The notes under the pieces were generated by a model that was given only the letters and a program-made list of their open reading frames with translations, did not search any database and was not told where the DNA came from. The position numbers and the translations under genes are program-made. A stretch of DNA of 64,000 bases from Gammaproteobacteria bacterium (lineage in GTDB: Bacteria; Pseudomonadota; Gammaproteobacteria; Steroidobacterales; Woeseiaceae), in the NCBI GenBank assembly GCA_013151645.1, contig JAADHU010000063.1:1-64000 (forward strand). The letters run 5' to 3'. Positions 3,553 through 36,955 of the stretch are shown piece after piece; position 1 is the first letter of the stretch, and the number at the start of each line of letters is the position of its first letter.

Positions 3553-5199
3553 CTAGGAGCGGTGAATGTATTTCCATGGACTTGTTTCGCTGCCTTTCTC
3601 GATCATCACTTCAATGACGGCGGGTCGATCTTCGTCAATCGCTTTGGCGAGAACAGGCTTAAGCGCTGCCGGAGAGTCAACCCGATACGCGTCGGCGCCG
3701 AATGACTCGGTCAGCTTCATGAAATCCGGGTTCTGTAAATCTGCACCTATGAAATGAGACTCGAAGCGTTCCTGCTGATCTCTGCGTACATTGCCGAACG
3801 AACTATTATTAAACAGAATCGTGACCAGTCCGATATTGTGCTGAACCGCCGCGGCAAGCTCTGGCATACCAAACATGAAACCACCGTCACCTGTGATGGA
3901 AACGACCGCCTTGTCCGGCATCGCCGCCTTCACGCCAATCGCAGTTGGAAAACCGAAACCCAGCGTCCCCTGGAATCCCGGGGTGACGTAGGTTCGTGGC
4001 TGGTAAACCTCGTAGCCGTAATACGAAGTGAAACCTGCCTGGCATAGCTCTTCTACAAAAAATCCGTCGCGTGGCAGTACGTCACGGATCACGTCGAGAT
4101 ACGCCATTTGTGGCTGAATCTCCTCGATCTCACTGCGAGCTTTGACTTTCGCCGCTTTGATACGATCCAGGTTGCCGGCATTGAAGCCGCGCTTTTCAAT
4201 CTTGCTGATAAGCGCCCGTACGCCATCCGCCGCATCGGCGACAACGCCAACATCGGGTTTGAAGCGCTGCATTTCCCGGGGATCGACGTCGATGCGAATG
4301 AGCTTCCGCCCATCGTCCGGCGGACTATCGTGATAGTCATTCATCGACAGCCAGCGCATGTATTGCATCTCAAGACGCGATCCAACACCGATGAGTAGAT
4401 CCGTGTCTTGCCACAAATCGTTGGCCGCCGCGGACGATACACCACAATCGCTGTCTTCACTCACCACGCCGCGACCACTGCGAAACGCAGTCGTTGCAGC
4501 GCCCAGCATTTCCGCAAGCTCCGTCACTTCGGCACTCGCATGTTGTGCTCCACCACCGCACATGATCATGATGTTCTTCGCATTGGCAATAAGTTCGGCG
4601 GCATCCGTCAACGCATCTTCATCAGGCGTGGGTTTGTCAATCGTCGCATTGCCAGGACCGATTTCGATATCGTGCGCCCCTGCCATCGTGTCCCAGCACA
4701 TTTCGAGCGCGACCGGACCTGGCCGACCGCTCTGCATGACACGGAATGCTTCGTTCATTTTCGCCGATGTATCTGCGGGATCGTCGATCCGCTCCGCATA
4801 CTTGATCACGCTACGCAACGTTGCCGCCTGATCGGCCAGTTCATGCAGGTGTCCGCGCCCTACGCCAAGAAACTGCGACATGATCTGCCCGGTCAGGCAG
4901 ATCACCGGCGTATTGCAACCCATGGCCGTGCAAAGCGCTGCCGTCGCGTTGAGCACGCCGGGCCCCGGTACGACGGAGAAGGCGCCGGGTCTGCCGGTTG
5001 CCTTGGCATAACCCATCGCCATGTAAGCCGCACCCTGCTCGTGTCGACTGATAATCGTCTTGATCTCGGGCGAGCGGTACAGCGCATCGAACAACGGGTA
5101 GATCTGCGCACCCGGCAAGCCGAAAATCGTATCAATACCATTTGCTTGTGCGGCGCGCACCATCGCTTCGCCGCCGGTCATCGTTTGTGTTTTTGTCAT
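3553..5199 (-). CDS. Thiamine diphosphate-dependent enzyme, acetolactate-synthase-like
   Basis: A 548-residue TPP enzyme with the usual three-domain order. The N-terminal PYR domain holds the catalytic Glu (RHEQGAAYM, E54). The C-terminal PP domain holds the ThDP/Mg motif GDGGFMFG (437 on) ending in NN at about 464-465. It belongs to the acetolactate synthase/oxo-acid decarboxylase superfamily; the exact substrate cannot be read from sequence. It is the last gene of a minus-strand operon: the carrier gene stops one base upstream of its start. The link with an aldehyde dehydrogenase suggests decarboxylation or carboligation of a 2-oxoacid and oxidation of the aldehyde. No regulatory small subunit lies nearby, which argues against a dedicated branched-chain amino acid role. 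Confidence 0.85.
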   Translation of the reverse strand: MTKTQTMTGGEAMVRAAQANGIDTIFGLPGAQIYPLFDALYRSPEIKTIISRHEQGAAYMAMGYAKATGRPGAFSVVPGPGVLNATAALCTAMGCNTPVICLTGQIMSQFLGVGRGHLHELADQAATLRSVIKYAERIDDPADTSAKMNEAFRVMQSGRPGPVALEMCWDTMAGAHDIEIGPGNATIDKPTPDEDALTDAAELIANAKNIMIMCGGGAQHASAEVTELAEMLGAATTAFRSGRGVVSEDSDCGVSSAAANDLWQDTDLLIGVGSRLEMQYMRWLSMNDYHDSPPDDGRKLIRIDVDPREMQRFKPDVGVVADAADGVRALISKIEKRGFNAGNLDRIKAAKVKARSEIEEIQPQMAYLDVIRDVLPRDGFFVEELCQAGFTSYYGYEVYQPRTYVTPGFQGTLGFGFPTAIGVKAAMPDKAVVSITGDGGFMFGMPELAAAVQHNIGLVTILFNNSSFGNVRRDQQERFESHFIGADLQNPDFMKLTESFGADAYRVDSPAALKPVLAKAIDEDRPAVIEVMIEKGSETSPWKYIHRS

Positions 5200-12680: not shown

Positions 12681-13688
12681 GTGCAACTTGTTAGCTTCAA
12701 CCACAAAGGCACGGATCGTATCGGTATGCGCCGGAACGACACCGAAATTGTCGCCATAAACGATCTGCCGGGGACTGATGCAACCGTCACACCCACAATG
12801 ATCGACCTGATCACGCAGGGGTCGGCCGCGCTGGCACACGTGCGCGCCCGCGCAGACAATCCAGACCCCGAGGCAGTCATCGCCAGCGGGGAAATCACCT
12901 GGCAACCGCCCGTTCCCAGGCCCGGGAAAATTGTCGGTGTCGCAATGAATAATTCAGCAAGCAATGCACGCAAGATAAGTGCACCGGATCATCCCGCCTT
13001 TTTTCTTAAACCCCCCTCCTGTCTGATCGGCCACGAAGCCGCCATTCGCATTCGCCCCTACTACGGCAGCGTGCATCCGGAGCCCGAACTTGCTGTCATT
13101 ATTGGCAAGACGACACGGGGCGTCGATGCGGTAGATGCCATGGAAAAGGTCTTTGGCTACACAATTTTCAATGACATCACCGGCAACGGCATGCGGGCTG
13201 ACGATCTGTTCCATTACTGGGCGTTGTACGCGAACGAAAAAGATCCGGATAAGCTGGACCGACGCGAACAACACCTTTCTTATGCCGCTCGCTATAAGGG
13301 TTCGGATACGTTTGGTTGCATGGGACCCTGGCTGGTTACTGCGGACGAAATTTCGGACCCGGACAACCTCGACGTGCATTGCTCGGTAGGCGGGGAATCA
13401 ATCGCCGAAGACAGCACCCGGTATTACAACTACAAGGTTGCCGAAATCATCAGTTATCTCAGTCAGTTCCAGACCCTGCTGCCGGGCGATATCATCAGTT
13501 GCGGCACGGCCTTCAAACCTTCGCCAGGGAGGAAATCGATCCATCATGCCAACCTGCAAAAGGTTCCCGGTCCTGTTTCGGTCTCCATCGCCGGTCTTGG
13601 TACGTTAATCAATTCCGTGGAGATTGACGACCGACCGATCGGTCAGTGGCATTTGCCAGGCAAGAACCCAGCCAACGAGGAATCCTAA
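12681..13688 (+). CDS. Fumarylacetoacetate-hydrolase-family enzyme
   Basis: A 335-residue protein with a C-terminal FAH fold. The acidic metal-binding region is visible (GSVHPEPELAVIIGKTTRG), with FNDITGNGMR and a late GDIISCGTA. FAH-fold enzymes hydrolyse, decarboxylate, hydrate or isomerise the 2-hydroxy-dienoates made by meta-cleavage. The frame opens upstream of 12681, but the GTG there follows AGGAG by seven bases and gives a family-like N-terminus. It ends two bases before mhpB, so the two are translationally linked. It probably acts on the MhpB ring-cleavage product or its descendant; no MhpC-type hydrolase is present. Confidence 0.85.
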   Translation: MQLVSFNHKGTDRIGMRRNDTEIVAINDLPGTDATVTPTMIDLITQGSAALAHVRARADNPDPEAVIASGEITWQPPVPRPGKIVGVAMNNSASNARKISAPDHPAFFLKPPSCLIGHEAAIRIRPYYGSVHPEPELAVIIGKTTRGVDAVDAMEKVFGYTIFNDITGNGMRADDLFHYWALYANEKDPDKLDRREQHLSYAARYKGSDTFGCMGPWLVTADEISDPDNLDVHCSVGGESIAEDSTRYYNYKVAEIISYLSQFQTLLPGDIISCGTAFKPSPGRKSIHHANLQKVPGPVSVSIAGLGTLINSVEIDDRPIGQWHLPGKNPANEES

Positions 13689-13690
13689 GC

Positions 13691-14650
13691 GTGTCGACAT
13701 CATTGATTTGCGCATCACACAGTCCGTTGCTTTACTGCTACGCGCAGGAACCTGAATCTTGGACAGATCTGCAGGAGGCCTACGCCGAACGGACAAAGGC
13801 TGTTGAGGAGTTCGACCCGGAGCTGGTCATCGCTTTTGGCGGCGATCATTTCAACGGCTTTTTTCTGAAGCTGATGCCGTCATTTTGCGTGGGTTTGAAC
13901 GCATCGGCTACCGGCGACATCGGCGGCTTTGCCGGCGCGCTCGATGTTCCTACTGACGCCGCTATTGCGGCCGTTCATTTCCTGCGCGCCAACGATATCG
14001 ATCCCGCGACTTCAACCAACATGACCATTGACCACGGGTTTTCACAAACGATTCACACTATGTGTGGCGGACTCGCGGCGAAAGCCGTCATACCGATTTT
14101 CATTAACTGTATCGCAGAACCCCTGGTACCGTTTCGCCGCAGTCGTTTAATGGGCGAAGCCATTGGAAGATTTGCCAAAGAGACGGGGAAACGAGTGTTG
14201 TTTCTCGCCTCCGGCGGCATGTCACATCATCCTCGACGTTATTATCCCGAGTTGGGAGACGGTCCGGAGGAAGTCAATGCCTGGCAACTCTCGGGCGGCG
14301 ACGATGCCGGCTCACTGACCGCCGAGGAGTGGATCGATCGTCTTGAGGTCATGCATCACGAAGGTGCGGAGATGATCGTTCGCGGCGAGAGAACGGCAAA
14401 GGACATGCGTCTCAACGACAAATCCGACGCCCGCTTTCTTGATGTAATGACCCGCAACGCGCTCGAAGAATTCGATCACTGGGATCAGCAACAACTCATT
14501 GAAGAAGCCGGCATCGGTTCAATGGAACTGCATACCTGGATCGCGGCGGCGGCGGCCCATAAGATGGCGGGTGGTGCCGCACCGGTTGTCGATTTCTACG
14601 CAGTCACGCCGGAACTCGGCATCGCCACCGGCGTCGTGCATGCGGATTAA
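13691..14650 (+). CDS. mhpB: MhpB-like extradiol dioxygenase (2,3-dihydroxyphenylpropionate type)
   Basis: A 319-residue class III (LigB-fold) dioxygenase close to the E. coli MhpB length. Motifs include the N-terminal ASHSPL with a metal-ligand His, FGGDHFNGFF and FLASGGMSHHPRR. MhpB cleaves 2,3-dihydroxyphenylpropionate or the cinnamate analogue next to the hydroxyls using Fe(II). The start is GTG 13691, two bases after the FAH stop, with GAGGA nine bases before it. It forms a two-gene unit with the FAH-family enzyme. Other substituted catechols are possible substrates, because the rest of the mhp pathway is absent nearby. Confidence 0.85.
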   Translation: MSTSLICASHSPLLYCYAQEPESWTDLQEAYAERTKAVEEFDPELVIAFGGDHFNGFFLKLMPSFCVGLNASATGDIGGFAGALDVPTDAAIAAVHFLRANDIDPATSTNMTIDHGFSQTIHTMCGGLAAKAVIPIFINCIAEPLVPFRRSRLMGEAIGRFAKETGKRVLFLASGGMSHHPRRYYPELGDGPEEVNAWQLSGGDDAGSLTAEEWIDRLEVMHHEGAEMIVRGERTAKDMRLNDKSDARFLDVMTRNALEEFDHWDQQQLIEEAGIGSMELHTWIAAAAAHKMAGGAAPVVDFYAVTPELGIATGVVHAD

Positions 14651-16332: not shown

Positions 16333-17151
16333 CTAAAGGGTCGCTGCCATCTTATCGGCCATTTCCACGGAACCCAGTACTCTTGAAATCTCGATGGCTG
16401 TTTCCTTGACGGGTTTCAGGTATCGAGTTTCCTGGTTCGGATCATTGTGTCGCATGGGCATGACCACCGTGATCGCTGCTTCAATTCGATCAAGGTAGTT
16501 GAAGATCGGCACGACGAGACCCGAGAATCCCGAGCCGTGCGGATTCTCGTCGAATTCGTAAAACTCCGAGCGAATCTTTGCCATCGTTTGACGTAGTACA
16601 TTGGGATCGAAATCGACATCACCCTGAGGATCGCGTTCAGTACGACGCGAGAGTATTCGTTCGCGCGTGTTTTCCAGCGAAAAAGCGAGAATGAGTCGAG
16701 CCGTCGGCGATGTCGGCACCTTCCAGCGAGTGCCACGAGAAATCTGTGGCGAGAACTGCCGATTGCCGGCGATTTTGGAGACGATCACAGCATCGCCACC
16801 GGCCGGGATTGCCAGTAGCAGCGATTCGGAAATCTTGTTCTTGAGCACGACCATGTGCCGATAGGCAATATTGGTGATCTCGTACTGGTCCAGGGCTGCA
16901 TTGGCCAGGCGGAAAAGCATCGACCCCAACCGGTAGCCGCTATTGTCCGGCGTCTTCGCCACCAGGCCAAGGTCGGACAACGTGCTCAGGTGACGGGATA
17001 CTCGCGCCTTGGTCATGCCGAGAAACAGCGCGATATCCGTGACCCGCTGCGGCCGGCCACTTTCCGCCAGGTATTCGAGCAATTTCACCGCCACTACAAC
17101 GCTGTGAACCGTTGAAGACTTATGCTTCACAGGTTTCTTTTCCACTTCCAT
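16333..17151 (-). CDS. IclR-family transcriptional regulator
   Basis: A 272-residue regulator with an N-terminal winged helix-turn-helix (about 15-75; VTDIALFLGMTKARVSRHL) and a C-terminal effector-binding domain (about 90-260; FSGLVVPIFNY). IclR proteins often control aromatic or organic acid catabolism and sense a pathway compound. It is the last gene of a minus-strand run of TonB receptor, TPP enzyme and AAHS carrier, 98 bases after the carrier. That makes it a candidate local regulator, alongside the TetR protein at 24860. Confidence 0.85.
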   Translation of the reverse strand: MEVEKKPVKHKSSTVHSVVVAVKLLEYLAESGRPQRVTDIALFLGMTKARVSRHLSTLSDLGLVAKTPDNSGYRLGSMLFRLANAALDQYEITNIAYRHMVVLKNKISESLLLAIPAGGDAVIVSKIAGNRQFSPQISRGTRWKVPTSPTARLILAFSLENTRERILSRRTERDPQGDVDFDPNVLRQTMAKIRSEFYEFDENPHGSGFSGLVVPIFNYLDRIEAAITVVMPMRHNDPNQETRYLKPVKETAIEISRVLGSVEMADKMAATL

Positions 17152-17249: not shown

Positions 17250-18587
17250 TCAATGAATGTGCATCCGGTACGCAATGACACCGCCAATTGCCATCGGGAT
17301 CGCGAAAAAGAAAAAATTGGCCGACATATCAAAGCCTGCCAATATCAGGTATCCGGCCACCAAGGGCCCCACTACCGCCCCGGAACGTCCCAATCCAATC
17401 GCCCAGCCGATGCCAGTGCTGCGGATTTCAGTGGGATAGACCTTTGCGGCAACCGCATACAGACCGGTGAAGCCGCCTTGCTGCAAGATGCCGATCAACA
17501 GGATCAGCACAAGCAGCAAGTTGAGATGACTTGGCACCATTGCGAATACGATCATGCCCACCGCCGAGGAAACGGACAGCACCAAGATGAGATTGGTCAA
17601 TTTCAGGCGTGTGGACAACCAGCCCAGCAAATAAATTCCTATTACTCCGCCCAGATTGAACAGGAACAATGCCTGGTGTCCGACCGCGGCGTCAAAACCC
17701 GAGTCTTCCATCAGAATCGGGATCCAGCTCATCAGGAAATAGAGCGTGCTAAAACACAGAAAAAACGCGGTCCACAGGGTTAGCGTGATTACGCGCAGTT
17801 CCTTGGAGAGGAGACCAAGCATCGTCTTTACGAGCCCATTGCCCGCAGAGGTGGTGGCGATGGCAACGTCCGGCAGCGCGTCCAGCGTATCCTTTTTCAG
17901 CTTGTTAAGAATGCTGTTGACGCGTTCAAGTGCTTTCGCCGGTCGACGCTCAAACAGGTATTTCAAGGATTCCGGCAGGAGCAGCCAGGCTACCAGCGCC
18001 ATCGCGAGCGTCACGGTGCCGCCGAACCAGAACATGCCGCGCCAGCCGTATTCCGGCATGATGATGCCTACCACGACGGAGGTCATCATCGCCCCCATTG
18101 GATAGCCCGAAGTCACCGCGGCGACGGACAGCGTACGGTACTTGCTCGGACTGTATTCAGCCGCCAGCGTTGCCTGGCAGGCAAGCATTGCACCGGCACC
18201 CATGCCACTGATAAAGCGCAGTATAAGAAATTCCACAAGGCTGGTTGCGTTGGCCGTCAGCAGAATTGAACCGCCCACCATCGCGACACTGATAACGATC
18301 ATCGGCCGCCGCCCGATAAGATCGGACAGCGGCGCCAGGAACATTGCACCAACCATCATCCCGGCCAGCGCGAAACTGAAAATCCAGCCAAGCAAGTCAG
18401 GGGTGAGTGACAACTCCGTCGCTACGGCGCTCGCCACAACCACCATCGTGATAATGTCGAAGCCATCCAGCATGTTGAGAAACAGGCAAAGACCAATGAC
18501 CAGAAACTGTTGCCCGCTAACCGATCCGTTATCAATAACCTCTGCAACGACACTCGCGCTGCTAACCATTCCTGCATCTGCGGACAT
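17250..18587 (-). CDS. MFS aromatic acid:H+ symporter (AAHS type)
   Basis: A 445-residue 12-helix carrier. The helix-1 signature LDGFDIITM and the loop LSDLIGRRP are typical of the aromatic acid:H+ symporter group (PcaK, BenK, MhpT, VanK relatives). It would import an aromatic carboxylate across the inner membrane. It follows the Tat-type TPP enzyme by 109 bases and precedes the IclR gene, fitting uptake of a compound made or released in the periplasm. The substrate itself cannot be read. Confidence 0.85.
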   Translation of the reverse strand: MSADAGMVSSASVVAEVIDNGSVSGQQFLVIGLCLFLNMLDGFDIITMVVVASAVATELSLTPDLLGWIFSFALAGMMVGAMFLAPLSDLIGRRPMIVISVAMVGGSILLTANATSLVEFLILRFISGMGAGAMLACQATLAAEYSPSKYRTLSVAAVTSGYPMGAMMTSVVVGIIMPEYGWRGMFWFGGTVTLAMALVAWLLLPESLKYLFERRPAKALERVNSILNKLKKDTLDALPDVAIATTSAGNGLVKTMLGLLSKELRVITLTLWTAFFLCFSTLYFLMSWIPILMEDSGFDAAVGHQALFLFNLGGVIGIYLLGWLSTRLKLTNLILVLSVSSAVGMIVFAMVPSHLNLLLVLILLIGILQQGGFTGLYAVAAKVYPTEIRSTGIGWAIGLGRSGAVVGPLVAGYLILAGFDMSANFFFFAIPMAIGGVIAYRMHIH

Positions 18588-18696
18588 ACCACCCCCCCTG
18601 TGAGTGTGACTATCTTAAGTAATATAGGTGCAGACGTGTCAGCGAATTTCGCCATCGACCACTAAATGGATGCACGTTCAATCAGAGTAGCAGTGA

Positions 18697-20598
18697 TTAT
18701 AGAGAGAATTCGTCGTGCCAAACCGAGTCCGCACCGCCGAATCTTGTGGCGATCGATACGTCGAGAACATATGCCCGCCCGGTCTGTACACTGGCAAGAC
18801 ACCGATCAATGGCCTCTCCGAGCCTGTCGGGATCGTCAACCCGCTCACCTTGCAGGCCGTAACCTCGAGCTATCTGTACATTGTCGATCTCGGGTGAGCC
18901 CAGGTAACAACCAATGTACTTTCCGCTTGCGGCTGCCCGTTTGCCGTAATTATGCAACGCCCGGCGATTGGCCTGGTAGGCATTGTTGTTCCAGATGACG
19001 ATAGCAACCGGCACTTTATAACGTGCGGCACTCCACAACGCCTGCACGCCGAATTGGAAACTACCGTCGCCGACCAGCAAAGCCACCGCTTTATCCGGCT
19101 GTCCGATTTTCGCACCAATCGCCGCTCCTGTGCCCCAGCCCAGGCAGCCACCGCTCGATGTAATGTGTCTCCTGCCCGGCGTCCCGACCGCAAAATCCAG
19201 GTATTGCCAGACGTACAAATCCGACGTCGCAAGTTCGCATACCACCAGCGCATCGGAAGCCAGGCGCTGATTCAATTCGACGGCGAGTCGCTCGGGCGCG
19301 ATGGGCGCCTGATCCCAGACGGCCGATGCGCGTTCAGATAGTCTCTTGCTGCGTGCTTCATGACCCTCAGCCAGAACCCTGCGGCGTTTTTCGATGCGCA
19401 ATGACGGCAGTTCCCGCGAGCGGACTTCTTCAAGCACGTCCGCAAGTATCAGGTCGCTGCGGCCGACCGCGGCCAGATCAACCGGGTAGTTTCGTCCAAT
19501 CTGTTTTCCATCGACGCTGGTGTGAATGATCGTGGCACCCGACCGCACCAGCGGCGTCGAGGGACGCCTGAACAACGTAAACATGGTCCCGCCGATCGAC
19601 CAGAAAAGGTCATAGTCATCGCTCGGATTCGGGTCGAGACCGAAATGACCACCGTAGTTGGCATGCGTTGTCGGGAAAACAATCGGGCTATGGCTCGCCG
19701 GCACATCGCTCATGACCGAGGCGCCCAGCAACTCGGCAAGCGCAAGCAAATGTTCGGTACCGCCGTATCGGCTTAGCTCGTGGCCTGCGATAAGCAGCGG
19801 AAATTTCGCCGCGATCAGCTTGTCTGCAAGTGCCCGGATGATTTTTCCGTCGGCCCGCAAGCTCACATCCACCGTGGAACGAGCCGGAGGAATGATTTCT
19901 GCTGCGGCGACGGTTTCTTCCCAGAGGTCCTTGGAAAACGTTAGAAAGGTCGGGCCCGAGGGCGGCAGGCGCGATATCAGAAAAGCACGCCTCAGTACTT
20001 CGGGAATACTGTCGCTTGTTAATACATCCCAGTTCCAGCGAGAGTAGGAGCCAGGAAGCATGTGCAGGTTCACCGCTTCCAGAAACGCGTTGCTTCCCCT
20101 GATATCAGTGCTCTGGCGCCCCACCGTTATCACCAGCGGCGTACGATCCTTGAATGAGTTAACCATCTGGCCAAGCGCGTAACTGGCACCGGCGACTGAA
20201 TGAAGATTAACAAAAGCGGTTTTCCCGCAACTTTTCGCGTAGCCGTCGGCCATGGCCACCACCGCCGACTCATGGATCGCCAGGATATATTGCAGTTCCG
20301 GCTTGTCCACCAGCGCGTCGAGGAAACCCACTTCCTCAGAACCACCCAGGCCGAAAACGTAATTCACGTCCCAGTCGCTGAGGAACTCGGCCATCAGCTC
20401 GCCACCGGTCAGATTGCCCAGCGGCCTGGCGTCAACGTTGGAACCCGCTGCATCCCGAGCCAGTACTACCTCTGCCAGCAGGGACCCGGTCGACGCAGCA
20501 AAGCCCAGTGCACCCATGCGGTGCATGAATTTTCGACGCGAAAGCTGCCCTTCCAGCAAAGCCCTAACTGAGTCACTTATTGAAGGAATATTGCTCAT
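18697..20598 (-). CDS. Benzoylformate-decarboxylase-like TPP enzyme with Tat signal
   Basis: A 633-residue TPP enzyme, longer than usual because of an N-terminal Tat signal: LSRRKFMH at 19-26, a hydrophobic stretch, and mature sequence from about residue 52. The catalytic part resembles benzoylformate decarboxylase: GGSEEVGFLDAL with Ser87 (BFD Ser26), HESAVVAMADGYA with Glu110 (Glu47), NLHSVAG with His133 (His70) and FPTTHANY with His312 (His281). The ThDP motif GDGSFQFG starts at 510, with NNN at 537-539. Expected reaction: decarboxylation of an aryl or other 2-oxoacid to an aldehyde. Known members are cytoplasmic, so periplasmic placement is notable. It lies between the TonB receptor and the AAHS carrier. 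Confidence 0.85.
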   Translation of the reverse strand: MSNIPSISDSVRALLEGQLSRRKFMHRMGALGFAASTGSLLAEVVLARDAAGSNVDARPLGNLTGGELMAEFLSDWDVNYVFGLGGSEEVGFLDALVDKPELQYILAIHESAVVAMADGYAKSCGKTAFVNLHSVAGASYALGQMVNSFKDRTPLVITVGRQSTDIRGSNAFLEAVNLHMLPGSYSRWNWDVLTSDSIPEVLRRAFLISRLPPSGPTFLTFSKDLWEETVAAAEIIPPARSTVDVSLRADGKIIRALADKLIAAKFPLLIAGHELSRYGGTEHLLALAELLGASVMSDVPASHSPIVFPTTHANYGGHFGLDPNPSDDYDLFWSIGGTMFTLFRRPSTPLVRSGATIIHTSVDGKQIGRNYPVDLAAVGRSDLILADVLEEVRSRELPSLRIEKRRRVLAEGHEARSKRLSERASAVWDQAPIAPERLAVELNQRLASDALVVCELATSDLYVWQYLDFAVGTPGRRHITSSGGCLGWGTGAAIGAKIGQPDKAVALLVGDGSFQFGVQALWSAARYKVPVAIVIWNNNAYQANRRALHNYGKRAAASGKYIGCYLGSPEIDNVQIARGYGLQGERVDDPDRLGEAIDRCLASVQTGRAYVLDVSIATRFGGADSVWHDEFSL

Positions 20599-20716
20599 AC
20601 CCGGAGTCTCGACCCAACGCGAATTAACAGGCGGTGCCTGGCCTTCTTCCGGACAGCATCGACCGACTCGTCCCGCGCCTCATCGGCCCGGACGTCCCGC
20701 TCGCGAAATCGCTCGA

Positions 20717-23116
20717 TCAGAAACTGATCGAGGCCCGTAACGCGATAGATCGAGTTTCTTCAATGTTGGTCGTAAGCACCGCGGACCCGGAGAGTGTTGA
20801 CGCATTGACGAAGGCATAGACGATCTCATTGGTCAGGTTTCGGCCAATGAGCGCAAGCGTCCAGGGATGGTCGCCAGCCATCGATGCCAGCACCAGGCTG
20901 GCGTCGATTCGATTGGTGGCACCCTGAAAAGCCAGTGGATCACGCTCAATGGACATGAACTGGCTGCTACTGCGAAGGTATTTCGCCGACATCGTCAGTT
21001 CCATATCGCTGCCCACCGGAAAGGTGTAATCCGCACCGAGAACCGAGGAAAATTTCGGCGCCACGGGCAATCGCTGACCGCCAAGATCCTGGACACCGGA
21101 GCGTTGGCCGGCCGAAATGCCAACATTGAAACAGCCGGTACCGGTCTCGACCTGGCTCAGATAACAGGAACCAATGAATTGGTCGTATTCCGTATCGGTG
21201 TACGCCGCAACAAGATTTAACGTCAGGCCATCCGCCGGTGTCGCCCACAAGAGGTCAATTTCGGCGCCCGCGCTGGTGGCGTCCGCGGAAGCCACCACCT
21301 GCTGAATCAGCACGGGGTCGTTGGCTGAAACCTGCAAGCCATCCACGTTGGTCTGATAAATCGTCCAGTTGAATCTGAAGGAGCCATCCAGCAGCAAATG
21401 TCGACCACCCAGCTCATAGTTGATTGACTCTTCTTCGCCGAAGATGAAACTGGCGGGGTTGCCAGCACCCCGGAGATCGAAACCACCCGACTTGAAGCCG
21501 GTCGCAGTGCTCAGGTAATACTGATTGTTGTCATCGGCGGCATATCGCAACGCAACGTTGTAAGAAACGTTGGTGTCGTCAATGCTGCCAGTGATGGGTG
21601 CGCCCGGCGTCATGCCGTCATTGCCCATCGTGCATGCTGACAGTGGCACCGTCGGCGTGTTGCAGGCAACGGGGGCGTTGTTCAGATCGCTGGTATAAAC
21701 TTCACCCACTATCTGTGCCTTGGAGCCGGTACGTTCTTCATTGGTCACGCGGGCGCCCAATGTGAGAGTGACCTGGTCCGTAAAGTTGTAGTCAACCTGG
21801 CCGAAGGCTGCCACGGAATCGGTCTCGGACTGTTGAAATTCGTTGCGGGAAACAGCCGGATTAATGGCCGGCACCGGCGGACCGATGGCCGCAGCGATCG
21901 CGTGGAAGGACTGCGTTGCATTGAGATCGCCGGTAAAATACATCAGGCCGGCGACGTAATCCAGCAAGCCGGAATCCGTACTGCCGTTCAGGCGAATTTC
22001 CTGATAGAACTGCTCGTAGTCTTCTGTGTTCTCAATGCTCACACGTTCCGTCGGCCTTTGATCGCCACTGAAAGTATCGTTAACTTCGTAGCTGGTGTAC
22101 GCCGACAGGGAGGTAACGGTGAAGTTGTCGAATTCGGCCGTCAACGTCACGCCCATTAAGTCGGACTGCAGCGTGAAGGGCTCTCTTGAGTTAAACACGG
22201 CACCACCGGGTGTCAGTCGCCGCAGATCGGCCGTTGAATTCCGGTCGCTCGGGCCACTGCAGTCGAAACCAATACTCTCTGCTCGACCGATCGATTGAGG
22301 GGGTCCCGCAGGCGGTTGGTATTCGAGGCAACCCGCAATCACCCGCGCCTTGCCCTGACGATCGAAGTCGGTGCGCTGATACATCAACTCGGCGGTTACC
22401 GCTTCGCTCAAGTCGATATCGAGCATAACCCGTGCCGTCAGATCCTGGCTTTGTTGCAGGTCATCACCGGTAACGCTGTTTTTCACCCAGCCGTCCGTAT
22501 CCCGGTAATTGACGACGGCTCTGCCGCGAATGCTGTCGCTGAACGGCCCGGATACCATGCCTTCGACCTCGAAGCCCTGGCTCGCCTGAAAATTGTATTG
22601 CGACGAAACGGTCGCTTCGAATTCTTCGGTGGGCCTGTTCGACGTTATATTGATGGCACCGAGTGATGTATTTTTGCCAATGACGGGACCCTGAGGTCCT
22701 TTGAGAACCTCTACCTGAGCCACATCGATGAGCGCACTGCGACCCAATCGGCTGCGGGTTGAGAAGTAGCCATTGAAAACCTGACCGACGCTGGGCTCGA
22801 AATGGATACCGCTGCCGAAGGTACCGAGACCACGCATGAAATAGAGGTCAGACGCACCGGCGGCCTGAATATAGCTGAAATTCGGCGTATAGGGCGCGAG
22901 TTGCTGCAGATCGACAATGCCCTGTTCGGCAATCAGTGCACCACTTACCGCTTGAATGGAAATGGGTACATCCTGCAATGATTCTTCCTGCTTGCGCGCC
23001 GTCACGATAATTTCTTCAAGTGCCTCGGCCGCTGCAAATCGGCAAGGTACAAGAGCAAGAGTAAACGCAATCGCCGTCATACAGGCAATGCTCAGTAACG
23101 TGGAAAAAGCTCTCAT
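20717..23116 (-). CDS. TonB-dependent outer-membrane receptor
   Basis: A 799-residue receptor with a signal peptide (about 1-30, ending FAAA), a TonB-box-like EEIIVTARK just after it, a plug domain (about 45-155; LKGPQGPVIGKNTS) and a beta barrel ending in Phe (RASISF). It resembles the large receptor group that sphingomonads and marine gammaproteobacteria use for bulky carbon compounds rather than for siderophores alone. It heads a minus-strand run with the Tat-type decarboxylase, AAHS carrier and IclR regulator. A TetR-type palindrome lies 181 bases upstream of the start. The substrate is probably an aromatic compound, by context. Confidence 0.88.
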   Translation of the reverse strand: MRAFSTLLSIACMTAIAFTLALVPCRFAAAEALEEIIVTARKQEESLQDVPISIQAVSGALIAEQGIVDLQQLAPYTPNFSYIQAAGASDLYFMRGLGTFGSGIHFEPSVGQVFNGYFSTRSRLGRSALIDVAQVEVLKGPQGPVIGKNTSLGAINITSNRPTEEFEATVSSQYNFQASQGFEVEGMVSGPFSDSIRGRAVVNYRDTDGWVKNSVTGDDLQQSQDLTARVMLDIDLSEAVTAELMYQRTDFDRQGKARVIAGCLEYQPPAGPPQSIGRAESIGFDCSGPSDRNSTADLRRLTPGGAVFNSREPFTLQSDLMGVTLTAEFDNFTVTSLSAYTSYEVNDTFSGDQRPTERVSIENTEDYEQFYQEIRLNGSTDSGLLDYVAGLMYFTGDLNATQSFHAIAAAIGPPVPAINPAVSRNEFQQSETDSVAAFGQVDYNFTDQVTLTLGARVTNEERTGSKAQIVGEVYTSDLNNAPVACNTPTVPLSACTMGNDGMTPGAPITGSIDDTNVSYNVALRYAADDNNQYYLSTATGFKSGGFDLRGAGNPASFIFGEEESINYELGGRHLLLDGSFRFNWTIYQTNVDGLQVSANDPVLIQQVVASADATSAGAEIDLLWATPADGLTLNLVAAYTDTEYDQFIGSCYLSQVETGTGCFNVGISAGQRSGVQDLGGQRLPVAPKFSSVLGADYTFPVGSDMELTMSAKYLRSSSQFMSIERDPLAFQGATNRIDASLVLASMAGDHPWTLALIGRNLTNEIVYAFVNASTLSGSAVLTTNIEETRSIALRASISF

Positions 23117-23387: not shown

Positions 23388-24863
23388 TCAGGGCAGGTCC
23401 ATCACCTGGCAAATGTTCTTGAGCTCCGTGTGAAACTCCATGGCGTGTGCCCCGCCCTCGCGACCGATACCGGACTCGCCGAAACCGCCAAACGGTGTGC
23501 GCAAATCGCGAATCATCCAGCCGTTGATCCAGCAAACACCGGCATTGAGTTCCTCGACGACCCGTCGGCAACGCGGTGTATCTGTAGACCAGACCGTCGC
23601 CGCCAGTCCGTAACGACTGTCGTTGGCCAGGGCGATTGCAGCATCATCGTCATCAACGGGCACAACGTGGCAACAAGGCCCGAATATTTCCTCTTTCACC
23701 GCAAGACCGTCCTCGGGCAGGCCTATCCAGATGGTCGGTTCAATCCAGGCGCCTCGCACGAAATCGTGTTCCATCTCTGGAACGCCCCCGCCCGTCACCA
23801 CCTCTGCGCCTTCGGCTTCAGCCTGGCGATAACATTGCAGGACTTTCTCTCGGTGTTCATGACTGACCAGCGGTCCCATCGTGGTCGCCGATGATCGGGG
23901 GTCTCCCAGAACCTGACCCTCGGCACAGCGCTTGAGCCCGGCAACAAATTCATCGTAGATCGACCGACTGACGTAGACCCGTTCGGTTCCCAGGCATATC
24001 TGACCGCTGTTGTAGAACACCGACGCCGCTGTACCGGCGATGGCGGCATCCAGGTTGCAATCATCCAGGATGATGGCAGCATTCTTGCCGCCGAGTTCAA
24101 GTGATACATCGCGAATGCCAACCGCAGCAGCCTGCATGATCGCGGTTCCGGTAGTGGTCTCGCCCGTGAAATTGATGGCATTGATGCCGGGGTGGCACGT
24201 AAGGAACTCGCCCGCAGACTCCGCGCCAAAACCGTTCACTACATTCACAACGCCGGCGGGAAAGCCCGCGTCGACAAAAACCTGACCGAGCATGCTCGCC
24301 GTCGACGGTGTCTCTTCGGATGGTTTCAAAACGACGGTATTACCCCACGCCAAGGCCGGTGCCAGCTTCCAGGTCGCCATGATCAGCGGCAGATTCCATG
24401 GACAGATGGCCGCAATAACCCCTTTGGGCACACGCTGTGAGTAGTTGTACGCCTGACGCCCGTCGGGTGTCTGCGTATCGAAGGTCTCGGGCTCGGACGG
24501 CCGGGATGCAATATCGGCAAACGCGCGCAGCTGCTGCGCCCCTCGCGGAATCTCAATCGCACTGACCGCGGCGATCGGGTGACCGCTATCGGCGATTTCC
24601 GCGGCAATAAACTCGTCTTTGCGAGACAAAATCAGATCGCAGGCCTTGCGCATCAGGTCATGCCGGTTCTCCGCGCTCATCCGGCTCCACGGACCATCGA
24701 GGGCACGGCGCGCCGCAGCGACGGCATCATCGATATCGTCAGCGGATGCCTCATGCACGATGGCCGCCAGATCGTGCGTCGCTGGATTCGGCACCTCGAA
24801 AGTCGATGCCGATTCCCTGTACTCACCGTCAATAAAATTCTTTACCTGTCGTGCCGCGGTCAT
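23388..24863 (-). CDS. Aldehyde dehydrogenase, hydroxymuconic-semialdehyde/HpaE-like
   Basis: A 491-residue dehydrogenase with PWNLP (Asn of the oxyanion hole), NFTGETTTG, LELGGKNAAI with the general-base Glu, and FYNSGQICLG with the nucleophile Cys. Length and motifs match the group that includes 2-hydroxymuconic and 5-carboxymethyl-2-hydroxymuconic semialdehyde dehydrogenases (HpaE), as well as betaine aldehyde dehydrogenases. Its start overlaps the TetR stop by four bases (ATGA). In this window it is the best candidate for the HpaE step missing from the hpa region, or for oxidising the aldehyde made by the decarboxylase at 18697. Which of these holds is unresolved. Confidence 0.85.
   Translation of the reverse strand: MTAARQVKNFIDGEYRESASTFEVPNPATHDLAAIVHEASADDIDDAVAAARRALDGPWSRMSAENRHDLMRKACDLILSRKDEFIAAEIADSGHPIAAVSAIEIPRGAQQLRAFADIASRPSEPETFDTQTPDGRQAYNYSQRVPKGVIAAICPWNLPLIMATWKLAPALAWGNTVVLKPSEETPSTASMLGQVFVDAGFPAGVVNVVNGFGAESAGEFLTCHPGINAINFTGETTTGTAIMQAAAVGIRDVSLELGGKNAAIILDDCNLDAAIAGTAASVFYNSGQICLGTERVYVSRSIYDEFVAGLKRCAEGQVLGDPRSSATTMGPLVSHEHREKVLQCYRQAEAEGAEVVTGGGVPEMEHDFVRGAWIEPTIWIGLPEDGLAVKEEIFGPCCHVVPVDDDDAAIALANDSRYGLAATVWSTDTPRCRRVVEELNAGVCWINGWMIRDLRTPFGGFGESGIGREGGAHAMEFHTELKNICQVMDLP

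Positions 24864-28121: not shown

Positions 28122-28125
<4 letters not shown>
26878..28125 (+). CDS. DUF3179-domain membrane protein
   Basis: A 415-residue protein with three N-terminal membrane helices (about 2-95) and a large C-terminal DUF3179 domain. Family landmarks are VVGVQLDNDACAYPAS, LINDKLGDRSLLL, TNTHSVWSPTGTCLQGELSG and a final WADFHPGTRVY. The ATG at 26878 follows GGAGG by eight bases; an earlier ATG at 26863 is itself part of that ribosome site, so I reject it. It overlaps ligA by four bases. DUF3179 has no assigned activity. Its tight coupling to a ring-cleaving dioxygenase is a useful clue. Confidence 0.8.
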
Positions 28126-30536
<2,411 letters not shown>

Positions 30537-30583: not shown

Positions 30584-31573
30584 TCAGGAGTCCCGAATTG
30601 CGCGCAGAACCAGGTTCTCGAGCAGCGAGATTTTGAAATGATTGTAGTTGAGAGGAACCGCGCCGCGCGCTGCTGAACCGGCCGCCAGCCTGGCGGTCTC
30701 TTCGTTTTTTGCACTGCCCCTTGCGATGTCTTCAGCCACGGACATGCGACGCGGCACACACTCCACACCGCCGCAGGCAATGCGAATGTCCTGGATGATG
30801 TCGTTCTCAACCTGTATCGCCGCCGCTACGTTCACCAGAGCGAAATCCCAGGTATTTCGATCGGCCACTTTTTCGAAATAGAATCTTGCTCCGGCCCAGG
30901 TATTCGGTATCCGAATGGCCGTCAGAATTTCGCCCGCTTCGATGACCGTCATTCGCTCTATATCGGTGTCGGGACCAATGAAAAAGTCTTGTGCGGAAAC
31001 AGTGCGCTCGCCAGCCTTGTTTTGAATCACCATGCTCGCATCCAGCACCACCAGCGCCGGAGCCAGATCTGAAGGTGAAACCGCCACGCAGCGATCGGCC
31101 CCGAACAGGCAATGTTCACGGTTCATGCCCTCAGGGGTATCGGCATAGCAGGTACTGCCGCCCGCCCGATAACAATCAATACCGCTGCGGTAGTACCAGC
31201 AGCGAGTATCCTGGCAAACGTTGCCACCGATTGTGCCCACATTTCTGATCTGCGGGCTCGCCACTCGCGATGCGGCATCCGCAAGCACCGCGTAACGACT
31301 CTTGATGAGCGTGTTTTCTTCGATTTCCGTCACAGTCGCCAACGCACCGATCTCAAGCCCCGAATCCGTTTCACGAATGCCGCGCATCGATTCGATACGC
31401 GACAGGTCAACGACAGCGCCGGGCCGCTTGGCCCGATCCTTGAACCAGTCAAGACTGTCCTGCCCGCCCGCAATCAGCCAACCGTCCGGGCCGAGTTTGC
31501 CGGCCAGCTCCAGTGCACCCGCAATATCGGCCGGTTGGTAAAGCTCGAATCTTGTCATCATGTCTTTTGCCAC
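30584..31573 (-). CDS. FAD/[4Fe-4S] subunit of PaoABC-like aldehyde oxidoreductase
   Basis: A 329-residue FAD subunit (CoxM/PaoB type). FAD-binding motifs are LIAGGQDSL (34-42) and RNVGTIGGNVCQ (110-121). A Cys-rich insert follows: Cys 120, 125, 134, 142, 155 and 162; those at 125, 134, 142 and 162 align with the four that hold [4Fe-4S] in E. coli PaoB. The frame extends upstream, but GTG 31573, with GGGAGA before it, starts 13 bases after the large-subunit stop. It is the third gene of the operon and passes electrons from the molybdenum centre to an acceptor. No signal peptide is visible. Confidence 0.85.
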   Translation of the reverse strand: MAKDMMTRFELYQPADIAGALELAGKLGPDGWLIAGGQDSLDWFKDRAKRPGAVVDLSRIESMRGIRETDSGLEIGALATVTEIEENTLIKSRYAVLADAASRVASPQIRNVGTIGGNVCQDTRCWYYRSGIDCYRAGGSTCYADTPEGMNREHCLFGADRCVAVSPSDLAPALVVLDASMVIQNKAGERTVSAQDFFIGPDTDIERMTVIEAGEILTAIRIPNTWAGARFYFEKVADRNTWDFALVNVAAAIQVENDIIQDIRIACGGVECVPRRMSVAEDIARGSAKNEETARLAAGSAARGAVPLNYNHFKISLLENLVLRAIRDS

Positions 31574-31586
31574 AGCCGTCTCCCGT

Positions 31587-33992
31587 TCAGAATGTGTAAA
31601 CCTGCAGTGGCTTATGAGACTGCTTTCGTTCAGCAATCGCGTTAATGATCATGTCCGGCACGATCGGTGTCCGATTGAAATAGTGCCCGCCAAGCGCATC
31701 CGAGATCGCACAGATCAATGCGGACGCGGCGCAACCCATAACCGGTTCCCCCATACCGCGGATGCCCATCGGATTCTGCGGATCGGCGATGTTGACGGCG
31801 TCCGTACCCAATGTTGAAGGCACGTCGAGATACGAAGGTGGTTTCGCCTGGTTAAATCCCACGTTTGCCGCCAGTCCGTTCTGCGGGTCATAGACGATAC
31901 GCTCGGTCGTGGCCAGACCAATGCCCATAACGGCACCGCCTTTCACTTGGCTGGCAAGTCCGAGCGGGTGAATCACGGTGCCACAATCAATGACGCCGTT
32001 GTAATCGAGAATTTCAAATCGCCCGGTTTCCGTGTCGAGTTCAATGACCATGAAACCGGCCGCCAGTGCAGGCGGCGTCGCGTCAAGCGCATAGTTGTCT
32101 TTGGCCACGCCGATCAACCCGCTGCCGGCGATGGCCTTGGCCGACGCGCTCGTCATTGGATTCAGGTCATCCGGAATCTCATGGCCGGCATATTTACCGC
32201 CCATATCAATAGCGCGCTGGGCCGCCTGGGCGTAACTCAGACGCTTCGTGGCATCCGCCTTCGAGAACACCGTTTCTTCGCCGATATCATATTCGTCGAC
32301 TGAACCACCGAACTCCGCCGCCGCAATCTCCAGCAATTTTTGCCGGGCGTCCATCGCGGCCGCATGGTTGCTGCGCGACATGGTAAAGCTGGTGTTGCTG
32401 CCAAACTGACCGAAATTCCAGGGTAGATGCTTGCGCGTATCGCCACGTTCGATAACGCAGTTCTCCCACTTGCATTGCAGCACTTCCGCAACCACGCGCG
32501 ACGTTGCTGCATAGGAGTAAGTGCCGAGATTGCCAATACCCGAATGAATGTGAAGGCGTCCATCGGGTGCGATGCGCACGAGACCGTCAAATCCGGCGGC
32601 GCCGGCCGAATGATAGGCCTGCCCGACGCCGACGCCGATCACCTTGGAGCCGTTGCGCTCACCGCTGCGTTTTTTCGTCCGCTCCCAATTGAATGCCAGA
32701 GCCCCCTTGTTCAACGCTTCGGTCTGGTAGGCGCTGGTGACGGCTCGCTGGCGACCACCGAAAATAGTGTCGTTGTTCGGCGCGTTTATTCTTCGAATCT
32801 CGAGACGGTCGATGCCGAGTTCCCGGGCGGCCTTGTCCAGCAAGGGTTCCATCACCATCGCAATCTGGTTTTGGCCCGGTCCACGCTGTGCGCCGCCGGG
32901 CGGTGTATTGGTCAGGATGGGGATGCCACGATATTGCATGGCGTTCGGTTGATAGCAGATCGATACGGCCCCAGCGGCACTGTTGAAATCAGGGTAACCA
33001 TTGTGCGGTCCACTCGATTGCACGATGTACAAATCGACGGCGGTTACTTTTCCACTACTGGCAACACCCAGTTTCACCCGCCCCTGGAAACCGGCTCGAT
33101 TCGAGCCCAGGTAGTATTCTTCGGCGCGACTGATGCGCATCATCACTGGGCGGCCAATCTTTTTCGACATATGTGCAGGCAATGCCATGATCGGGTAAGC
33201 CGCACCTTTGGAACCGAAACCACCGCCACAGTACTCCGCGATGTAGACCAGGTCCCGCGGTTCGATGCCGATATAGGCGGCCAGACCGGGAATCATGAAA
33301 CTCTGACTTTGCGACGATCCAAAGAGAAAACACTTGCCATTCTCCCAGTAAGACATCGCGCTGCGCGGTTCCATGCTGTGGTGTGAATTACTGGCGGTTA
33401 CAAACGATTCATCGTAGACCACGGCGGCCTCAGAAAAGGATTTCTCCAGATCACCGTAAGACCACTCACTCACCGCTTTTCCAGTCATCGGAAACTGGTC
33501 GGGATCTGCGGAGGCAAAGTCTCGAGCAGTCCACTTTATTTCCTGCAACGGTATACCCATGCTGGCGACGTTGCCCGCCGCCTGTGCATTGGTACCGCCG
33601 GGGTAAAGACTTTGCAGCGGGTCGAGCACGAAATCCAGCGGTTCAATGTCGTAGCGGATTTTCTCCAGGGCATCGGCTGCGGTCGTTTCATCGATCGCAG
33701 CGACGGCCAGGATCGGAGCGCCGACATAACGAGGCGTATTGGTCAGAATCGCCTGCGCGGCGCCGTCCATTGCCGGTACGTCGTCTGCGGTCAGCACACC
33801 GACGACACCGTCCATCGACATGGCATCGCTCACATCAATATTCGATACCTGTGCGTGCGGCATCGGACTGAGGAGCATCTTGCAGTAAACCATTCCCGCG
33901 GCGCTGAAATCCTCGGCATATTTTGCTTTGCCGGTCACCTTGCCGCGAATGTCCGGGGGCGTGAAGTCTTTGCCGATAAGCGAGTAAGCCAT
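31587..33992 (-). CDS. Molybdopterin-binding large subunit, xanthine dehydrogenase family (PaoC-like)
   Basis: An 801-residue catalytic subunit. Motifs include EYCGGGFGSKG (cofactor region), PPGGAQRGPGQNQ, and the C-terminal RGMGEPVMG with the catalytic Glu. It binds Mo-molybdopterin (often the cytosine dinucleotide in this group) and hydroxylates aldehydes or aromatic N-heterocycles with water as oxygen source. It has no signal of its own, so if periplasmic it must travel with the Tat-tagged small subunit. It starts one base after the small-subunit stop. The aldehyde substrate is inferred from PaoABC resemblance of the partner subunits. Confidence 0.86.
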   Translation of the reverse strand: MAYSLIGKDFTPPDIRGKVTGKAKYAEDFSAAGMVYCKMLLSPMPHAQVSNIDVSDAMSMDGVVGVLTADDVPAMDGAAQAILTNTPRYVGAPILAVAAIDETTAADALEKIRYDIEPLDFVLDPLQSLYPGGTNAQAAGNVASMGIPLQEIKWTARDFASADPDQFPMTGKAVSEWSYGDLEKSFSEAAVVYDESFVTASNSHHSMEPRSAMSYWENGKCFLFGSSQSQSFMIPGLAAYIGIEPRDLVYIAEYCGGGFGSKGAAYPIMALPAHMSKKIGRPVMMRISRAEEYYLGSNRAGFQGRVKLGVASSGKVTAVDLYIVQSSGPHNGYPDFNSAAGAVSICYQPNAMQYRGIPILTNTPPGGAQRGPGQNQIAMVMEPLLDKAARELGIDRLEIRRINAPNNDTIFGGRQRAVTSAYQTEALNKGALAFNWERTKKRSGERNGSKVIGVGVGQAYHSAGAAGFDGLVRIAPDGRLHIHSGIGNLGTYSYAATSRVVAEVLQCKWENCVIERGDTRKHLPWNFGQFGSNTSFTMSRSNHAAAMDARQKLLEIAAAEFGGSVDEYDIGEETVFSKADATKRLSYAQAAQRAIDMGGKYAGHEIPDDLNPMTSASAKAIAGSGLIGVAKDNYALDATPPALAAGFMVIELDTETGRFEILDYNGVIDCGTVIHPLGLASQVKGGAVMGIGLATTERIVYDPQNGLAANVGFNQAKPPSYLDVPSTLGTDAVNIADPQNPMGIRGMGEPVMGCAASALICAISDALGGHYFNRTPIVPDMIINAIAERKQSHKPLQVYTF

Positions 33993-33993
33993 T

Positions 33994-34647
33994 TCAGATC
34001 ACCTCCGCCGCGCGCATCACGGAATTCAGGTAGTGGTCGTAGGCACCGCAACGACAAAGATTTCCGGACAGTGCCCGCCGCGCTTCGTCGCGCGTTGGTT
34101 TGGGATTTCGTTCCAGTAACACCACCGTCGACATGATCTGTCCGGGCGTACAAAACCCGCACTGCGGGCCCAGTTCGTCAATGAATGCCTGCTGTATCGG
34201 GTGCAATTCCCCATCGGGGCCTTCCAGCCCTTCGATCGTACGCACCGATCGTGAGCCCACTGTGTGCGTCAACGTCGAGCACGAATAATTCGTCATGCCG
34301 TCGATCACCACCGTACAGGCGCCGCATTCTCCACGATCGCAGGCGAGCTTGGTCCCGGTTAGCCCCAGCTTGTAGCGTAGTGTCATGGCCAGTGTTTCGT
34401 TGGGTAGTACATCAACACGACGAATCCTGCCATTCACGTTCAACGAAATCAGCCGTTCGACGCTGCCTGCTGCAGGACCCTCGCCCGGGGCGCAACCCGA
34501 CAGCAGGTATCCGGAAGATGCAGCGACGGCACCCGACGCAATAACCCCTTTGATAAACGCGCGCCGGCTTGAGCGGAATGCCGATAGTCCGGGCGGATCC
34601 GCCTCATTCAACGAATCCCCCGGAAAGTAAGTCGTGGGATCTTTCAT
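33994..34647 (-). CDS. [2Fe-2S] small subunit with Tat signal (PaoA-like)
   Basis: A 217-residue ferredoxin-type subunit. A long N-terminus carries a twin-arginine signal (SSRRAFIKG) and then YLLSGCAPG, a lipobox-like site that could make it a Tat lipoprotein. The plant-type [2Fe-2S] site is CDRGECGACTVV plus a later Cys; the second cluster is in CGFCTPGQ and CRCGAYD. The ATG at 34647 follows GGAGGT by seven bases and is preferred over an upstream start at 34668. A Tat signal on this subunit is the E. coli PaoA arrangement. It is the first gene of the operon. Confidence 0.88.
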   Translation of the reverse strand: MKDPTTYFPGDSLNEADPPGLSAFRSSRRAFIKGVIASGAVAASSGYLLSGCAPGEGPAAGSVERLISLNVNGRIRRVDVLPNETLAMTLRYKLGLTGTKLACDRGECGACTVVIDGMTNYSCSTLTHTVGSRSVRTIEGLEGPDGELHPIQQAFIDELGPQCGFCTPGQIMSTVVLLERNPKPTRDEARRALSGNLCRCGAYDHYLNSVMRAAEVI

Positions 34648-34873
34648 TCTGGTTACCTCCGCGCCCATCGGCTGACACTAGACAATTTCTTCTTGTGGGT
34701 AAAGCGTGTGAAAGTATCGCTTCATTCTAGACCGATTATTGATCAAAAGTGCGGCCAGACGAAGTCACTCAGCGGGATATCTTGCTGTGCGAAACAGACG
34801 CCGGTTCGCGCGACAGCCAATTTCGCTATCATGGCAACGGAGCCAGACTACTTTTCTGACCGGAATACGCAAT

Positions 34874-36097: not shown

Positions 36098-36955
36098 TTA
36101 ATGAGCGACAGGGAAGACCACGTTGCACTGGCCGGTACCGGAACTCGGAAAATACTCCGTATAGACCTCGCCCTTGCCGTCATAGGAATCCCAGCCCAGG
36201 AGCCCGAACAGCATCGCCGTGTCGTGCATGCCTCCCTCGCCTGTGCAATCACGCGCGTACTTGGGCAACATTTCGAGGAATTCCTGAATCCGGCCCTCTT
36301 GCCACATCGCCATCACCATCCGGTCAACGTCTTCATTGAACGGGTCGCTGATCTTGAAAAGATAGTCGTTTACAATTGCGTTTGGCGGAATGCGATGGGA
36401 CAGTGAACCACTGGCGAGAAACGCAACGCGGCGATCTGAAGCGGACACGGCGGCGGCAATCGCTTCACCGACGATACGCGACTCAGCAAGCTCTGCATCG
36501 TACATCCAGCCCGCGATTGAGATGAGTTGCATGGACTCGCCCACGTCCATGTAATGCATGGGTACCAGCGTCCCATATTGCAACGGCAGCGTTTCCACAT
36601 CTCTGTGGCAAAGCGTCTCCGTGCCGGCTGCGGTCGCAATATCCGCAATAGACTGACCGAGCTCGGAATCGCCAAGATGGCTGTAGGGCATATCACTCAG
36701 AAAATGCGGAAATTCCGTGCTGGTGAATATTCCTTTCATTTTCGGATTGGCGTTGATGTGATAGCCCGCATTCACCAACCAGTGGGTGTCGGCAATGATG
36801 ATGGTATCAACCTGCCGTTCGCGACACAGGTCACCAATGCGCTTCAAACCGTCAATCGCCGCAACCCGGCATCCGTGATGCGGTCCGGGCCTATCCGAAA
36901 TAAACATCGACGGCACATGCGTTACTTTCGCGGCAAGTACGATCTCTCCCATCAC
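36098..36955 (-). CDS. hpaD: Homoprotocatechuate 2,3-dioxygenase (HpaD/HpcB type)
   Basis: A 285-residue class III extradiol dioxygenase. VTHVPSM (His ligand), PGPHHGCR, ADTHWLVNAGYHI and FLASGSLSHRIPP match E. coli HpaD/HpcB, which opens 3,4-dihydroxyphenylacetate to 5-carboxymethyl-2-hydroxymuconic semialdehyde with a divalent metal. AGGAG lies six bases before the ATG at 36955. It is the last gene of a minus-strand series hpaF-ligA-ligB-CMD-hpaD, with an 82-base gap before it. It is the expected acceptor of the HpaB product. Confidence 0.9.
   Translation of the reverse strand: MMGEIVLAAKVTHVPSMFISDRPGPHHGCRVAAIDGLKRIGDLCRERQVDTIIIADTHWLVNAGYHINANPKMKGIFTSTEFPHFLSDMPYSHLGDSELGQSIADIATAAGTETLCHRDVETLPLQYGTLVPMHYMDVGESMQLISIAGWMYDAELAESRIVGEAIAAAVSASDRRVAFLASGSLSHRIPPNAIVNDYLFKISDPFNEDVDRMVMAMWQEGRIQEFLEMLPKYARDCTGEGGMHDTAMLFGLLGWDSYDGKGEVYTEYFPSSGTGQCNVVFPVAH

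Follow-up and report, generated by a model that had tools for sequence, protein, structure and literature searches.

The window, a stretch of 64,000 nucleotides from a gammaproteobacterium of the Woeseiaceae (contig JAADHU010000063.1), carries a gene for an enzyme of the thiamine diphosphate (ThDP) superfamily whose product begins with a twin-arginine (Tat) signal. This gene, hereafter the target, and the neighbouring genes relevant to its function are as follows:

18697-20598, minus strand: Tat-signal ThDP enzyme of family 1, A-type (the target), 633 aa, with its ATG at 20598
20717-23116, minus strand: TonB-dependent receptor (PF00593/PF07715) immediately upstream of the target, with orthologues adjoining the family in genomes G001, G027 and G008
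17250-18587, minus strand: MFS transporter downstream of the target, related to aromatic acid:H+ symporters (TIGR00895, 344 bits, below the cut-off of 418.6)
16333-17151, minus strand: IclR-family regulator, most like the PcaR/PobR group (below the subfamily cut-off)
23388-24863, minus strand: aldehyde dehydrogenase, 2-hydroxymuconic semialdehyde dehydrogenase equivalog (TIGR03216, 702.9 bits, above cut-off)
13646-14650, plus strand: LigB-type extradiol dioxygenase (PF02900)
28122-28517, plus strand: LigA-like dioxygenase alpha subunit, assigned by eye
28660-29370, plus strand: LigB-type dioxygenase beta subunit (PF02900, 220 bits), the true start probably lying farther upstream
29367-30536, plus strand: cytochrome P450 (PF00067)
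30584-34668, minus strand: three-subunit molybdenum aldehyde-oxidoreductase-like enzyme, with a separate Tat signal, SSRRAF, on the Fe-S subunit (33994-34668)
36098-36955, minus strand: HpaD, 3,4-dihydroxyphenylacetate 2,3-dioxygenase (TIGR02298, above cut-off)
41786-43231, minus strand: HpaB, 4-hydroxyphenylacetate 3-monooxygenase (TIGR02309, above cut-off)

The LigA- and LigB-type dioxygenases, the P450, HpaB, HpaD and the molybdenum oxidoreductase all lie within 25 kb of the target. Further proteins with Tat signals are encoded at 50757-53099 and 187-2025 (VSRRTF and VTRRDF, respectively), the former resembling L049:7935-10271, a neighbour of the B-type locus of G009, and a second ThDP enzyme, acetolactate-synthase-like and without a signal, is found at 3553-5199.

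The family profile scored 994 bits on the target, and the three TPP_enzyme domains (N, M and C; PF02776, PF00205 and PF02775) were all detected above their cut-offs, the N domain starting at residue 64. The ThDP motif, described as intact in the initial annotation, is indeed present, with GDGS at residues 510-513 and NNN at 537-539. Benzoylformate decarboxylase (BFD) was the top PDB sequence match (E 6e-55), and BFDs also ranked first in a fold search with the predicted structure, including 6qsi and 7orx, which are characterised 4-hydroxybenzoylformate decarboxylases; the AlphaFold model used for this search (8-row alignment, pLDDT 74, pTM 0.77) is of middling quality and serves for fold assignment only. 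With 316.8 bits the target falls below the cut-off (493) of the NCBIfam BFD equivalog NF005485, and it also scores below the cut-offs of the PoxB and acetolactate synthase group models. The target is a ThDP enzyme nearest to BFD in both sequence and predicted fold.

Active-site residues were numbered on PDB chain 4k9k, an H281Y mutant of BFD with the Tyr at index 281. In the alignment, Ser26, Glu28, Glu47 and His70 of BFD correspond to S87, E89, E110 and H133 of the target, so that three of the four catalytic equivalents originally proposed (Ser26, Glu47 and His70) stood. The fourth, His281 as H312, was rejected, because BFD residue 281, in VFRY(H)QY, aligns with F343, while H312 matches the His of the BFD FPTRH motif (residue 246 by count on the aligned chain). 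The aryl pocket is also changed, Phe397, Leu461, Trp463 and Phe464 of BFD being replaced by Thr480, Asn544, Arg546 and Ala547. The description of the enzyme as benzoylformate-decarboxylase-like is therefore appropriate at family level and for Ser26, Glu28, Glu47 and His70, but does not extend to His281 or to the pocket. Among the relatives, most B-type enzymes have Ala at BFD position 26, and the C-type enzymes (L014, L059, L044, L097) have no His70 equivalent.

According to PMC6028569, replacement of BFD His281 by Phe lowers kcat only 5-fold (Yep et al. 2008), an effect mild enough that Phe343 does not exclude decarboxylase activity. A calculation given in the same source confines the part of His281 to substrate binding and makes Glu28 the net proton source via His70; the target therefore retains the residues most important for decarboxylation. 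Judging from the aligned residues, its chemistry is likely to be BFD-like, which makes it a candidate decarboxylase. Owing to the pocket changes, the natural substrate is probably other than plain benzoylformate, which would be only a guess, and in view of Phe343 and the altered pocket it may not be an arylglyoxylate. That the target is a decarboxylase we consider fairly likely, and that its substrate is aromatic slightly less so.

The region ahead of the catalytic domains consists of two parts:

20458-20598, minus strand: Tat signal region, residues 1-47 (MSNIPSISDSVRALLEGQLSRRKFMHRMGALGFAASTGSLLAEVVLA), with RR at 21-22; dN/dS 0.09
20395-20457, minus strand: linker, residues 48-68, ahead of an internal Met69, under relaxed selection (dN/dS 0.39)

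The N-terminus comprises a 20-residue n-region, the twin-arginine motif LSRRKFM (SRRKF at residues 20-24), a stretch of moderate hydrophobicity and an end rich in Ala (VLA, 45-47), after which cleavage is possible; an S/T-R-R-x-F signal, an h-region and an A-x-A-like site were thus all found. TIGR01409, the NCBI Tat model, gave 15.7 bits on the target, just below its cut-off of 16.7, and across 23 distinct N-termini of the family it matched 12, with formate_TAT matching 13 (E<=1). In the alignment of these N-termini, which has a mean column identity of only 36%, R21 and R22 are invariant and F24 and G32 are conserved in at least 90%, and in this respect the clear twin-arginine signal of the initial annotation proved real. 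All 25 full-length family-1 members, which span 31-87% identity and come from Gammaproteobacteria, Acidobacteriota and one Hyphomicrobiales, carry [S/N/D/G]-R-R-x-F/L 14-20 residues past the start; no homologue without the signal was found among them, and no such RR motif occurred in the inspected open reading frames of the nearest non-Tat relatives. The dN/dS values were obtained against a congener 86% identical to the target (residues 2-47 for the signal, and 0.07 for the body of the enzyme), and a low value in the signal followed by a high one in the linker is the pattern expected of a translated, selected signal and then a free linker. The RR pair in every full-length homologue, the selection on the signal and the presence of TatC in the source genome (225.8 bits) strongly support Tat export, and on these sequence features the target is very likely exported. 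Because enzymes of this superfamily bind ThDP at the interface of the dimer, export of the holo-enzyme would be demanding.

Relatives were collected from the source genome, its family, order, class and phylum, and from GTDB contigs; members of family 1 scored at least 477 bits (the lowest two being contig-truncated) and the best non-members 414. In the profile search, family 1 reached full-family score in 14 of the 107 genomes of the window's own family, in 3 of 369 across the class and, across the phylum, in the source genome only (1 of 398), while Acidobacteriota and one Hyphomicrobiales MAG also have members. In a tree built on the catalytic part only, the characterised BFDs group with their cytoplasmic allies (100/100), apart from the clade of A- and B-type Tat enzymes (100/99), and it is this separate BFD group that constitutes the nearest relatives without a signal. 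The C-types and L002 fall outside the A/B clade, and a common origin of all Tat enzymes of family 1 was neither demonstrated nor rejected (p-AU 0.206).

Tandem A/B pairs are present in G001, G027 and G018. An obligate two-subunit A+B enzyme was nevertheless rejected, since no B-type match was found in the source genome, only the A-type was seen in G008 and G452, and only the B-type in G445 and G444. At the junctions matching window positions 18588-18696 and 20599-20716, the congener G001 (L042) carries two additional genes, for a B-type Tat-ThDP enzyme and a coniferyl-alcohol-dehydrogenase-like SDR; the window is without both, the remainder being syntenic at ~80% identity. The source genome also encodes a 35%-identical Tat-ThDP paralogue (L002:1474-3426, G000:C33), located beside a signal-peptide creatininase-family protein. 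Downstream of the Hyphomicrobiales C-type Tat-ThDP gene (L044:747-3148) come a haem-binding protein (PF09098), within 2 nt, and then ABC-type binding-protein-like genes.

A TonB receptor adjoins the family-1 gene in nine genomes (that of the window, G001, G027, G008, G452, G445, G444, G481 and G470), the receptors being of four types that are mutually 24-36% identical; 13 of the ~22 family-1 loci have no adjacent TonB receptor. With 34 such receptors in the source genome, chance adjacency amounts to ~2% per locus, so that ~0.4 cases would be expected among ~22 loci, and shared ancestry cuts the nine adjacencies to about four independent pairings. The A-type gene of G009 has PobA on one side and, on the other, an aldehyde dehydrogenase and a coniferyl-alcohol-dehydrogenase-like SDR, at a locus that also has LigB and LigK equivalents. 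In G445 and G444, the surroundings of the B-type gene include LigJ/LigK-, PobA- and LigAB-like genes as well as a transporter of the kind seen in the window (assigned partly by eye). This gene context supports extracytoplasmic work on aromatics. A MarR-UbiD-UbiX-like trio was also seen to recur near A- and B-type Tat-ThDP genes (L131, L050, L048, L135 and L133).

ThDP enzymes with Tat signals also occur in a second family, for which three stretches are relevant here:

L003:1489-3408: second-family Tat-ThDP gene of the source genome (G000:C44)
L140:6186-6611: periplasmic cytochrome c paired with a second-family Tat-ThDP gene
L145:3764-8884: plasmid of the alphaproteobacterium Novosphingobium sp. 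KACC 22771, with a Tat-ThDP gene followed after 3 nt by one cytochrome c gene, then by another and by that of a TonB receptor; PLSDB annotates no feature in this stretch

The Tat signal of this family is even more typical (ISRREFLGTGAAAG in L020), R16, R17 and F19 are invariant in 11 members, and the family is present in 20 of the 107 genomes of the window's family. Of the 15 distinct genes scored, 14 have a signal-peptide cytochrome c that begins within ~13 nt of the ThDP stop codon, and PF00034 was confirmed in the three cytochromes c that were checked. Cytochromes c mature only outside the cytoplasm, and the pairing therefore provides separate evidence that this is also where ThDP enzymes with such signals act. 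The neighbouring cytochrome c suggests oxidative decarboxylation for the second family. In the neighbour scoring, none of the A- and B-type genes, the target included, is directly followed by a cytochrome c gene. Two families of exported ThDP enzymes thus seem to exist.

With a probability of roughly 0.6, we read the target as a BFD-group decarboxylase of 2-oxoacids that depends on ThDP, is exported by Tat to the periplasm and acts on an aromatic substrate obtained via the adjacent TonB receptor. The protein would fold in the cytoplasm before its export, and the substrate, aryl-glyoxylate-like or larger and more polar, would enter through the receptor. Decarboxylation of the aromatic 2-oxoacid in the periplasm would yield an aldehyde, which may be converted into the aromatic acid either by nearby Tat-exported molybdenum oxidoreductases in the periplasm or by aldehyde dehydrogenases in the cytoplasm; the acid would then be taken up by the aromatic-acid symporter and enter protocatechuate-type ring cleavage. 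Against such a periplasmic route, the aldehyde dehydrogenases and SDRs found as neighbours in the family look cytoplasmic.

A Tat-exported target might instead not be a simple decarboxylase, but pass the ThDP carbanion/enamine to an electron acceptor, in a cytochrome-c-linked oxidative decarboxylation, or act as a C-C lyase or carboligase. This is unlikely, as the A-type retains the BFD residues for non-oxidative decarboxylation and the A- and B-type genes have no cytochrome c directly downstream, although the c-type cytochromes within a few bases of the second-family genes, the one that likewise follows family-1 L044, and the changed pocket and missing His281 of the target all point in that direction. 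It is more doubtful still that the target is cytoplasmic and its RR segment a conserved regulatory or assembly element merely resembling a Tat signal. The hydropathy of the h-region is modest, the predicted model puts helices in the RR segment and several catabolic enzymes nearby are cytoplasmic; however, no N-terminal residues besides the RR pair are fully invariant (F+2 and a Gly reach at least 90%), Tat profiles match many members, the linker is under relaxed selection, and the partners are TonB receptors and cytochromes c.

A mis-called start in an ordinary cytoplasmic BFD, the true one being the in-frame ATG of Met69 (MAEFL) with GGTGGCGAG ahead of it, is very improbable and was rejected: the conserved internal start that the initial annotation had considered is absent in the 61%-identical L011 (TVEF there) and in the B- and C-types, the codons upstream of Met69 are constrained at the protein level, and initiation there would cut into the TPP_enzyme_N domain. 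Just as improbable is a degenerate, inactive paralogue, for even though positions S26, H70 and H281 vary among family members, the body shows a dN/dS of ~0.07, the ThDP motif and the Glu47 equivalent are retained, and the open reading frame is intact in the congener (86% identity).

Compared with BFD (MdlC of P. putida, 1BFD) and the 4-hydroxybenzoylformate decarboxylases of P. fluorescens Pf-5 (6QSI) and R. jostii RHA1 (7ORX), the periplasmic decarboxylase proposed here has the same three-domain ThDP fold at ~25% identity and shares the Ser26/Glu28/Glu47/His70 equivalents, and both are set among genes of aromatic catabolism that include an MFS transporter and an aldehyde dehydrogenase (cf. 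the bzf cluster, PMC7760541). It differs in its Tat signal, in Phe343 for His281, in the pocket (397/461/463/464) and in the TonB receptor at its locus, whereas the known system has an OprD porin. PoxB and the acetolactate synthase group have the ThDP superfamily and the domain order in common with the target, but are cytoplasmic or membrane-peripheral, and in the tree the target groups with BFD. Tat-exported cofactor enzymes, such as the periplasmic aldehyde oxidoreductase PaoABC, are likewise folded, cofactor-bearing redox or catabolic enzymes with an SRRxF signal; these carry Moco, Fe-S and FAD, in contrast to the ThDP of the target, and we know of no described ThDP member among them.

ThDP enzymes are treated as intracellular because their cofactor is synthesised and retained in the cytoplasm and binds at a dimer interface; to our knowledge the known ones, including those in the papers searched, work inside the cell. 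No paper on a Tat-exported or periplasmic ThDP enzyme of either family was found in the open-access literature, a scope in which absence is weak evidence. What would be new is a known kind of enzyme in a compartment where such enzymes are not known. We lean slightly towards regarding the BFD-related family with its TonB receptors, and the second family in an operon unit with periplasmic cytochromes c, as an undescribed class of extracytoplasmic ThDP enzymes for the periplasmic decarboxylation of aromatic or related 2-oxoacids, partly feeding electrons straight to cytochrome c.

If true, a conserved exported ThDP family would widen the range of cofactors handled by the Tat system, and would raise the question of whether the holo-dimer is exported or ThDP is picked up outside. 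A central C-C bond cleavage in aromatic degradation would take place outside the cytoplasm, where reactive aldehydes do less harm, and the cytochrome-c-linked sister family would represent an unusual coupling of 2-oxoacid decarboxylation to respiration.
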